A stretch of 64,000 bases of DNA from Amycolatopsis sp. DSM 110486 (GTDB lineage Bacteria; Actinomycetota; Actinomycetes; Mycobacteriales; Pseudonocardiaceae), in the NCBI RefSeq assembly GCF_019468465.1, contig NZ_CP080519.1:2929001-2993000 (forward strand), given 5' to 3'. This document shows positions 15,050 through 19,369 of this stretch, in pieces. How positions within the stretch are numbered: the stretch's first letter is position 1; every line of letters starts with the position of its first letter. The notes beneath the pieces were generated by a model. That model was not told where the DNA came from. It worked only from the letters and a program-made list of their open reading frames with translations, and ran no database searches. Made by a program: the position numbers and the translations under genes.

Positions 15050-15541
15050 ATGGTTTTCAAGGTCGGAGAGACCGTCGTCTACCCGCACCACGGTGCCGCA
15101 CTCATCGAAGCCATCGAGACCCGCGTGATCAAGGGCGAGGAGAAGAAGTACCTCGTCCTCAAAGTCGCGCAAGGGGATCTTACGGTTCGCGTGCCTGCTG
15201 ACAACGCCGAGATCGTCGGTGTGCGTGATGTCGTCGGGCAAGAAGGACTGGACAAGGTTTTCGACGTACTGCGTGCTCCCCACACCGAAGAGCCCACGAA
15301 CTGGTCTCGTCGGTACAAGGCCAACCTGGAGAAGCTCGCCTCCGGCGACGTGAACAAGGTGGCCGAAGTGGTGCGCGACCTCTGGCGGCGAGAGAAGGAC
15401 CGCGGACTTTCAGCCGGCGAGAAGCGCATGCTGGCGAAGGCGCGGCAAATTCTGGTCAGCGAGCTCGCGCTCGCGGAAGGCACCGACGAGGACAAGGCGG
15501 AAACACTCCTCGACGAAGTTCTGGAAACCGCGACGGTCTGA
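15050..15541 (+). CDS. carD: RNA polymerase-binding transcription factor CarD
   Basis: 163 aa, the standard length for actinobacterial CarD, which stabilises the open promoter complex. The N-terminal RNAP-interaction domain starts [14 protein letters not shown]; the C-terminal DNA-binding helical domain includes [17 protein letters not shown] with the conserved Trp85 that wedges into the upstream edge of the bubble, and [21 protein letters not shown] 15050 follows AAAGGGG. It is divergent from lpqE and precedes the ispD-like gene by 64 bp, as in M. tuberculosis. Confidence 0.98.
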
Positions 15542-15605: not shown

Positions 15606-16289
15606 ATGAACCAGCAGGTGCAGAGCGTCGCGTTCGTGACTGTCGCACACCACATCGCCGATGAAGAGCGTGCTCTCACGACGGTGAACGGTGAAGTTCT
15701 TCTCAAGCACACCGTGCGGGGGCTACTCGGGACACCGGAGCTCGATCTGGTGGTCGTGTCAGCCCCTTCTCGGTGTGCTGAGTCGTTTTCGGACGCCCTT
15801 TCAGACGCACTTTCGGACCTCGTTTCCGAGCTGTCCGATCGCTGCCGGTTCGTCCCCGGTGCGTCGCTCCGGCAGGTTTTCCCCGCCGTCGAGCCTTTGC
15901 TTTCCCCTGGTGCGGTGGTTCTCGTTCACGACGCCCTGCGCGCCTTCACTCCACAACGGACTGTCCGTGATGTACTGACCACGGTCCGTGCAGGTGCGTC
16001 TGTCGTAGTCCCGGTGCTCCCGATGGCGGACACCGTGAAGGCGACCGACGCCGGCTTGATCACCGCCACCGTCGACCGCGACGGCCTGCGCACCGCCCAG
16101 ACCCCCGTCGGCTTCTCGCTCGACGCGTTTCGCGCGGCACTCGCCGAAAGCCCGGACCCGGGCCTCGGCTCCGTGTCCGGCGCGATCACCGTCCCCGGCG
16201 ATCCCGACGCCATGCGCGTCGCGAGCGCCTTCGAACTCACGCTCGCCGAAGCCCTCGTGGCCGGCGGCGACCAGGAGGCCCCGCTGTGA
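15606..16289 (+). CDS. IspD-like cytidylyltransferase with degenerate active site
   Basis: 227 aa in the exact ispD position between carD and ispF, overlapping ispF by 4 nt. The C-terminal two thirds clearly match Isp[32 protein letters not shown] and QTPVGF. The nucleotide-binding N-terminus does not. Where IspD has AAGxGxR...PK, this protein reads [15 protein letters not shown], so the glycine loop and both basic catalytic residues are gone. The second substrate Lys appears as Arg in DAMRVAS, and the usual YTDDAS segment is deleted. An unusual [17 protein letters not shown] run lies near residue 60. The frame is open and intact, with somewhat lower third-position GC than its neighbours. Probably not an active MEP cytidylyltransferase (inference). 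Confidence 0.85.
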
Positions 16290-16759
16290 CCGACCTGCGT
16301 GTGGGCAACGGCGTCGACGTCCACCCCATCGAACCCGGCCGCGACTGCTGGATGGCCGGCCTGCTGTGGCCCGGCGTCGACGGCTGCGCCGGCCACTCCG
16401 ACGGCGACGTCGCCTCCCACGCCCTCTGCGACGCCCTGCTGTCCGCCGCCGGCCTCGGCGACCTCGGCGCCGTCTTCGGCACCGGCGACCCCCGCATGGA
16501 CGGCGCCCACGGCACCGACATGCTCGCCGAAGTCCGCACCCTGATCGAGGCCGAGGGCTGGCGCGTCGCCAACGCCACCGTCCAGATCATCGGCAACCAC
16601 CCCCGCGTCGGCAAACGCCGCGCCGAGGCCCAAAACGCCCTCGGCGCGGCCATCGGCGCCCCGGTCAGCGTCTCCGGCACCACCACGGACGGACTAGGCC
16701 TCACCGGCCGCGGCGAAGGCATCGCCGCCCTCGCCACCGCCCTCCTCCTCCGCGACTGA
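16286..16759 (+). CDS. ispF: 2-C-methyl-D-erythritol 2,4-cyclodiphosphate synthase
   Basis: 157 aa, typical length. Catalyses ring closure to MEcPP with loss of CMP in the non-mevalonate isoprenoid pathway. The zinc ligands are present in GVDVHP (Asp/His) and [12 protein letters not shown] (His); the CDP-binding end is [20 protein letters not shown] 16286 overlaps the stop of the ispD-like gene. In contrast to its partner, this enzyme retains all expected motifs. Confidence 0.97.
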
Positions 16760-16806
16760 CCCCTCCCCAGTCCGCTCGACCGCTCCGCCACTTCTCTCAC
16801 CTTCGC

Positions 16807-16891
16807 GCGCCCCAATGCGGCGTTGGTTGCACCCAATGCACCCAACGCGGCGTTCGTTGCGCCCAACGCACCGAACGCCACATTGGGGCGC
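16807..16891. repeat. 85-bp iterated palindromic element
   Basis: The ends GCGCCCCAATG and CATTGGGGCGC are exact reverse complements. Inside, CGGCGTT occurs twice and CCAACGC recurs on either strand, so units of the form CCCAA(T/C)G-CGGCGTT alternate in orientation. Looks like an intergenic REP-type family member rather than a terminator: it starts 47 bp after ispF and has no T tract. Confidence 0.7.
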
Positions 16892-17041
16892 TTTGACGAC
16901 CCCCACCCACCACCACCCGCCCAACCAACTCACCACCCACCCAGGCCGCGTCCACCCTCCCCACCGCCGCCCAACCACGCGACGAAACCCCGCACCCAGA
17001 CCCGCCCCGGCACCCCGATCCGAAGCCCCTTTGCGGCCGGC

Positions 17042-17980: not shown

Positions 17981-19369
17981 GTGGCCCTACACCTGTTCGA
18001 CACCGCGACCCGTGCCTCTCGGGAGTTCGTTCCCGTCCGGAGCGGAACGGCGTCCATCTACCTGTGTGGCGCCACGGTGCAGGGCGTGCCCCACATCGGG
18101 CACGTGCGGGGAGTGCTGAACTACGACGTCCTGCGGCGCTGGCTGCTCCACAGTGGACTCGACGTGCTCCTGGTCCGCAACGTCACCGACATCGACGACA
18201 AGATCCTCACCAAGGCCGCCGAAGCGGGCCGGCCGTGGTGGGAGTGGGCGACCAAGCACGAGCGCGCGTTCGAGAAGGCCTACGACGACCTTGGCTGCCT
18301 CCCGCCGTCGGTCAACCCGCGCGCGACCGGGCACATCACGCAGATGATCACGCTCATGCAGCGGCTGATCGACAGCGGCCACGCGTATGCGGCCGAAGGT
18401 GACGTCTACTTCTCCGTGAAGTCGTTCGACGGCTATGGCAAGCTCTCGGGCCAGCAGCTCGACGAGGTGCAGCAGGGCGAGACACCGACCCGCGGCAAGC
18501 TCGATTCACGCGACTTCACGCTGTGGAAGAGCGCGAAGCCGGGCGAGCCGTCGTGGCCGACGCCGTGGGGCGACGGGCGGCCGGGCTGGCACCTGGAGTG
18601 CTCGGCGATGTCGACCAACTACCTCGGCCCGGAGTTCGACATCCACGGCGGCGGCGTCGACCTGGTCTTCCCGCACCACGAGAACGAGCGCGCGCAGTCG
18701 AACGCCGTCGGCGACCCGTTCGCGCGGTACTGGCTGCACAACGCGTGGGTGACGATGTCCGGCGAGAAGATGTCGAAGTCGCTGGGCAACACCGTGTCGA
18801 TCCCGGCGATGCTGGAGCGCTACCGCGCGCCCGAGCTGCGTTACTACCTCGTGCAGCCGCATTACCGCTCCACTGTCGAGTACTCCGACAACGCGGTCGC
18901 TGAGGCGGCGCAGGGTTACCGCCGCATCGAGGCGTTCCTGCGGCGCGCGGCGGCGGCCGGCGAGGTGCTCGCAGGCGCCGTGCAGCCGGACTTCGCCACC
19001 GCGATGGACGACGACCTGGCCACGCCGGCCGCGTTCGCCGTGGTGCACAACACGGTGCGCGACGGTAATGCCGCGCTCGACGCGGGCGATACCCCCAAGG
19101 CACTCGAGCTGGCTTCGTCGGTGCGCGCGATGACCGACGTGCTCGGCGTCGATCCGCTCTCGGACCGCTGGGCCGACGGCGGCGGCAGCGAGACCCCCGT
19201 CCGCGAAGCGCTCGACGAACTCGTACAAGGCCTGCTGGCCGAACGCCAGGAGGCGCGCGCCGCGAAGGACTTCGCGCGCGCGGACGCCGCCCGTGACCGC
19301 CTCACGCAGGCGGGCATCGTGGTTGAAGACACCCCGAACGGTCCGCAGTGGACGGTCAGGAACTCCTGA
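17981..19369 (+). CDS. cysS: Cysteinyl-tRNA synthetase
   Basis: 462 aa class I synthetase. The zinc-site Cys29 (LCGATVQ), HIGH at residues 38-41 and KMSKS at 263-267 are present, along with [21 protein letters not shown]. The C-terminal DALR-like helical domain is complete, which separates it from the shorter mycothiol ligase MshC (about 410 aa). Location after ispF and before rlmB matches M. tuberculosis Rv3580c. Start GTG 17981. Confidence 0.96.

Follow-up and report, generated by a model that had tools for sequence, protein, structure and literature searches.

IspD is a drug and herbicide target that has been treated as a homodimer, and the known enzyme is a homodimer; in the paper on the E. 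coli structure, the arm of one chain is reportedly described as serving the active site of the other. Trypanosomatids offer a different precedent, in that a prozyme is a dead paralogue that activates an enzyme. A published review places the IspD arm at residues 137-159, where it links the chains and contains the MEP site, with MEP seeming to bond with R157 and K213 and the CTP phosphates being held by R20 and K27 (PMC11770629). Two further reports locate T140 at the hydroxyls of the ME part, give a loss of 75% of the activity for the F. tularensis mutant T141D (equivalent to T140) and of all activity for T141E (PMC3111433), and name the arm as the main contributor to the dimer interface (PMC5099578). 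Among the titles and abstracts found in the open-licence part of PMC, a heterodimeric or split IspD is not described.

The window analyzed here, a stretch of 64,000 nucleotides from Amycolatopsis sp. DSM 110486, carries an IspD-like gene that occupies the same carD-ispF operon slot as canonical homodimeric IspD (TIGR00453, PF01128; structures from E. coli, M. smegmatis and B. subtilis). Together with a second homologue encoded outside the window, it forms a pair with the same fold in both chains, whose members jointly hold the whole active-site set; the difference from the canonical enzyme is that the set is here divided over two proteins, neither of which is whole and neither of which reaches the NCBIfam cut-off. 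Residues are numbered after E. coli IspD (sequence from the K-12 record) unless the slot protein is named, and the relevant features of the window are as follows.

15050..15541, plus strand: carD, the upstream neighbor that marks the ispD slot (Pfam search)
15606..16289, plus strand: the gene in the ispD slot, whose 227-aa product is the predicted arm subunit of a split IspD; begins with ATG and ends with TGA
15639..15671, plus strand: codons of the P-loop (canonical AAGxGxR...K, CTP); motif lost (alignment)
15852..15875, plus strand: codons of the cytosine loop (canonical GGxxRxxS); motif lost (alignment)
15930..15941, plus strand: HDALR segment with slot-protein D109 and R112 (E. coli D106 and R109), kept (alignment)
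16002..16097, plus strand: beta-arm, slot-protein residues 133-164, a long two-stranded hairpin (AlphaFold2 model)
16029..16040, plus strand: slot-protein D142-T143-V-K145 (E. coli D139, T140, K142), kept in 115/115 slot copies with a partner
16074..16079, plus strand: slot-protein D157-R158 (E. coli D156, R157), R157 kept in 115/115 slot copies with a partner
16149..16187, plus strand: stretch of the canonical TDDAS/TDEAS; motif lost (alignment)
16215..16217, plus strand: slot-protein R204, replacing E. coli K213 (alignment)
16286..16759, plus strand: ispF, intact, with a 4-nt overlap with the slot gene (Pfam and NCBIfam searches)

The first-pass annotation had described an ispD slot with a 4-nt overlap to an intact ispF and an undamaged frame, and we see both: the overlap lies at 16286, and 15606-16289 is open over its 227 codons, with cysS further along from ispF, at 17981, in the window annotation. 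In bifunctional IspDF ispD and ispF are linked, whereas in the window the two genes share only this overlap. The slot protein scores 101.2 bits against Pfam IspD (PF01128), above the gathering score of 27, in a match that begins at profile position 17 and so leaves the P-loop unmatched, and 84.1 bits against NCBIfam TIGR00453, below the cut-off of 181.3. Alignment to E. coli IspD shows that it has lost the AAGxGxR loop, K27, the GGxxR loop and the TDEAS loop and that K213 has become R, in agreement with the earlier description of a missing AAGxGxR, PK lysine and TDDAS segment and of a K-to-R exchange at the second lysine; the CTP site, taken as R20 and K27 of the P-loop, the GG loop, the TDxA loop and K213, is absent. 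The same alignment reveals what that description had passed over, namely that D142, T143, K145 and R158 of the slot protein, which correspond to E. coli D139, T140, K142 and R157, are all kept, and the protein possesses the MEP arm, i.e. a beta-arm with T140, K142 and R157.

The named close relatives of the slot protein are mostly from Amycolatopsis, the nearest at 93% identity. Alignment with Pseudonocardiaceae orthologues, which had been proposed at first pass, found the slot copy degenerate in 80/80 genomes of the genus, with 0 to 3 of seven CTP-site residues retained and the frame open in every one. A sequencing error or a pseudogene is ruled out by this loss common to all 80. Two repeat features were seen along the way: an insertion of repeats within the slot gene, at window 15780-15840, that is absent in several close relatives, and, downstream of ispF at 16805-16895, a series of imperfect CCCAATGC/CCCAACGC-type repeats that may form hairpins.

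A Pfam IspD search of the whole genome (10.98 Mb) returned five places, among which no other complete IspD was found. Outside the window, at G000 C1:5970646-5971308, it located a full-length IspD-type protein (161.7 bits in the genome search), and the three places that remain besides the slot gene are GlmU and MobA-like proteins, as judged by eye. This second protein carries ASGAGTR, NK, GGATRQ, TDTAS and KIT, i.e. the CTP-site set, and lacks T140, K142 and R157 of the MEP arm; it scores 162.2 bits against PF01128, above the gathering score, and 172.4 bits against TIGR00453, under the cut-off. The earlier suggestion that the cell uses another IspD while this copy has changed its role was right in outline: a search for a canonical ispD elsewhere in the genome does yield one further homologue, but one without the arm residues and below the family threshold.

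Because NCBI labels several second copies as IspD/TarI family, one might suppose that the second copy makes another CDP-polyol in the manner of TarI and that the slot protein works as an IspD through an unusual active site. TarI (ribitol-5-phosphate cytidylyltransferase) does share the fold and the CTP site, but against its model, NF001183, the second copy scores 85 and the slot copy 35.5 bits, neither reaching the cut-off of 166. The slot protein, moreover, lacks the loops for base and phosphates, the shortest partners described below are without most of the nucleotide-binding half, and the second gene adjoins ispF in other families, all of which makes this supposition most improbable.

The need for the enzymatic step is evident from the pathway. 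Dxr, IspF and IspH were looked for in the genome and all were present, and no HMG-CoA reductase passes the cut-off (best match 21.8 bits, cut-off 27), which leaves a mevalonate bypass unsupported; therefore some protein must make CDP-ME, and residue comparison indicates that neither copy holds a whole active site of the known kind. Dxr was likewise found in 119/120 family genomes. IspH is encoded twice, both genes scoring over the cut-off (G000 C1:2180723-2181556 and C1:7458208-7459038), and HMG-CoA reductase exceeds its cut-off in 21/120 family genomes, such that a mevalonate pathway may coexist with the MEP pathway in some of them.

Since the losses are reciprocal, one copy keeping the CTP site and the other the arm residues, the pair likely forms one working enzyme. 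We consider it very likely, judging from these residue patterns, that the slot protein and the second protein constitute a two-part MEP cytidylyltransferase with the slot protein as its arm subunit. Besides the slot protein and this predicted partner, no IspD homologue was found in the genome; in the proposed heterodimer, the CTP pocket of the second protein and the arm of the slot protein would make one working active site, while the mirror-image site would be dead on both sides. The two options raised at first pass, a new role or an unusual active site, are in this way joined, the role retained most likely being that of the arm in a composite active site.

The pattern extends over the family Pseudonocardiaceae. 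We compared slot copies from 195 genomes (80 of the genus and 115 others) and second copies from the 115 genomes that have one; both copies are present in 80/80 genus genomes and in 35/115 of the other family genomes. Slot copies with a partner retain T140, K142 and R157 in 115/115 genomes, and R20 in only 7, K27 in 2, K213 in 5, D190 in 30 and G82 in 27 of them. Conversely, the second copies have R20, K27, G16, G18, G82 and D190 in 115/115 and K213 in 114/115, with T140 in 0/115, K142 in 0/115 and an aligned R at 157 in 4/115. Where the second copy is lacking, the slot copy has the whole CTP set in 79/80 genomes (in the exception, G163, a contig end truncates it), T140 and R157 in 80/80 and K142 in 76/80. 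The losses are complementary in 114 of the 115 genomes with both copies, the exception being G130, whose slot copy is still complete. These counts retain G163 and G090, which meet contig ends, and G055, whose second copy is frameshifted, and exclude two surplus rows, L036 (the third IspD-like gene of G079) and L322 (the additional arm-less copy of G054).

The same division emerges from conservation. Ten columns are invariant in 50 slot sequences, R109, D139, T140, D156, R157 and a QxP motif among them, and the invariant columns of 42 second copies include the P-loop, N-K, GG, R, S-E, DxAR, TDT and K. With one sequence per genus (17, 17 and 32 genera for slot copies with partner, second copies and slot copies without partner, respectively), mean conservation is 0.34, 0.95 and 0.95 for the P-loop and 1.00, 0.54 and 0.99 for five key residues of the arm. 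A strict arm motif, applied without alignment, occurs in 115/115 slot copies with a partner and in none of the second copies (0/115, 0/31 and 0/15); because it also misses 3/80 complete slot copies and 28/59 non-actinobacterial controls, it supports the loss of the arm and does not alone show it. T140 itself is not universal, as several alphaproteobacterial IspD proteins have A at this position.

A few loci stand apart. In G079 the usual two are joined by a further IspD-like protein (L036, C10:34187-34849), whose CTP site is full and whose arm differs (FDTTHE), and the Amycolatopsis genome G054 has two arm-less second-type copies (L321 and L322). In G055, also Amycolatopsis, the second copy (L201) is frameshifted at about 2291-2294, near residue 136 and just before the arm; both of its halves have 76-77% identity to P0002, and the shift is either a sequencing error or a real break.

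Selection acts on both genes. Computed as summed dN over summed dS for pairs among 79 of the 80 Amycolatopsis genomes, the dN/dS of the slot gene is 0.45 overall and 0.51, 0.29 and 0.44 in its N part, arm and C part, respectively; the second gene has 0.30 overall, with 0.26, 0.36 and 0.19 in the same three parts, and ispF, as the comparison gene, has 0.22. Both genes are under purifying selection, and each is most relaxed in its lost part. One could regard the slot gene as a decaying leftover that is kept for the spacing or translation of ispF and whose product has no role, as the relaxed N part (0.51) and the 4-nt overlap would allow; we hold this to be very unlikely, given that frames are open in 80/80 genomes of the genus, that T140, K142 and R157 persist in 115/115 slot copies with a partner, that the arm is constrained (0.29), that partners in other families sit next to the second gene, at a distance from ispF, and that a full active site is absent from either copy alone.

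Single-chain AlphaFold2 models (pLDDT 92.2 for the slot protein and 94.6 for the second) both match IspD structures in Foldseek. In the model of the slot protein the arm is long and two-stranded (residues 133-148 and 151-164), and in that of the second copy the same region consists of short pieces, 144-146, 152-155 and 160-162.

An allosteric arrangement deserves closer consideration, in which the second copy would be a complete IspD alone, with a new hold on MEP, and the slot protein an activator or scaffold comparable to the trypanosome prozymes. The second copies do have every CTP-site residue in 115/115 genomes, save K213 in one, the second copy has the higher IspD score (172.4 versus 84.1 bits), and a Ktedonobacterales MAG contains a second-type protein without a partner being found. 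However, the arm of the second copy is its least conserved part and varies by genus, so that no new binding pattern is seen, and partners in every family keep the MEP-binding residues. As in the trypanosomatid prozyme pairs, a paralogue that is catalytically dead persists as a likely partner; unlike in those pairs, each protein has lost what the other keeps, and the dead one retains residues that bind substrate, a pattern that indicates a shared site and not allostery. We therefore judge this arrangement improbable, though less so than the two alternatives above, and favor the composite active site.

Outside the family, an order-wide survey of 298 genomes, with a threshold of E 1e-35 or better, detected a second-type protein in 58, of which 32 lie outside Pseudonocardiaceae. 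We read 31 of these 32 (G444 was left out) and found an arm-bearing partner in 31/31, 19 by BLAST and 12 by an arm motif of our choosing or by reading frames near carD and the second gene. Co-occurrence with a partner is accordingly seen in 115/115 family and 31/31 other-family genomes. The partner adjoins the second gene in 26 of the 31 genomes, and in the other five (G205, G218, G224, G254 and G278) it stands between carD and ispF, apart from the second gene. Two of these, L337 (G254, 696-1974) and L354 (G278, 1470-2874), are slot copies fused to ispF in one open frame, resembling the IspDF fusions, with an IspD half that is degenerate on the CTP side.

In five genomes (G196, G211, G223, G232 and G240) the partner has shrunk to 116-133 residues, with starts chosen by us, and still keeps ETVK and the R157 arginine. 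Profile comparison with canonical IspD gives probabilities of 83.5% for the shortest partners, 98.5% for the mid-sized and 100% for the mycobacterial ones; for the shortest, the protein database contains five relatives, which bear neither a Pfam domain nor a name. In ten genomes of one family, the carD-ispF gap measures 11-53 bases with no ispD between; the second gene lies tail to tail with the partner, and apart from this pair no IspD-like protein, and in particular no complete IspD, was seen in the ten. The family is mycobacterial, as G376 and Mycolicibacterium iranicum have identical second copies.

Both genes also occur in named species, namely Mycolicibacterium moriokaense, M. austroafricanum, M. 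sediminis, M. iranicum and M. llatzerense and Nocardioides halotolerans, N. luteus and N. gilvus. Among the named actinobacterial loci outside the family, neighborhood revealed the partner in 14/15; the 15th, Kocuria rosea, has no partner adjoining the second gene, but one was predicted to exist, and a genome search then found it, with DSIK and DR, about 11 kb away. A genome search of the Ktedonobacterales MAG (Chloroflexota) found no partner for its second-type protein. No natural fusion of both halves appeared among the best 120 of 1493 matches (highest coverage 51%), and none of the 11 stretches of viral contigs that matched encodes a relative of the second copy.

The reciprocal losses, the co-occurrence of the two genes and their adjacency are direct observations, from which we infer the complex and its activity. 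Against the split reading count the partnerless MAG, the complete slot IspD in G130, the R at 157 in four second copies, the A in place of T140 in several alphaproteobacterial proteins, the use of a self-chosen motif for 12 of the 31 other-family partners, the 83.5% profile match of the shortest ones, the small number of supported independent pairs described below and the lack of a natural fusion among the best 120 matches. On balance, it appears likely that much of the Actinomycetota makes an essential housekeeping enzyme as two separate half-enzymes, whereby an arm-less subunit of single origin has repeatedly taken over the arms of resident IspD proteins, and the resident has lost its CTP half and shrunk, down to an arm-only protein of about 120 residues, to leave an obligate heterodimer with one composite site per pair. 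If this is true, two proteins that databases name IspD would each be dead alone, and annotation, pathway models, engineering and inhibitor work would miss one gene in Amycolatopsis, Saccharomonospora and some Mycolicibacterium and Nocardioides. The graded series of complete, half-decayed and arm-only proteins would, furthermore, render the transition from homodimer to obligate heterodimer directly testable.

As to history, 80 of the 81 rows labeled arm-less form one supported clade in a quick tree (SH-aLRT 98), and the arm was therefore likely lost once; the 81st row, a Bipolaricaulota MAG, has a normal arm and groups with canonical IspD. On a tree of ispF and carD for 193 of the 195 genomes, which is weak and short, a second gene goes together with a decayed slot copy, and its absence with an undecayed one, in 192/193 rows, and the gene changes 11 times. 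A test on independent pairs, under-powered with only three supported pairs, gave two that agree, none that opposes and one with no difference. The mirror-tree r for 62 representatives is 0.75 between slot and second copy, next to 0.63 and 0.55 with carD; this correlation was set aside, as the strong conservation of carD makes it an unfair control.

A gene that already lacked a working arm may have been acquired and have used the arm of the resident IspD, whose CTP half would then have been lost, a decay that in some lineages would be recent enough to be seen half way. The slot copies decayed on more than one occasion: in genus g31, G143 and G170 have half-decayed copies whose nearest relative is the complete slot copy of G109, a genome of the same genus without the second gene, and these two copies have lost partly different residues, and G130 carries the second gene together with a complete slot copy that is 98% identical to that of G091.
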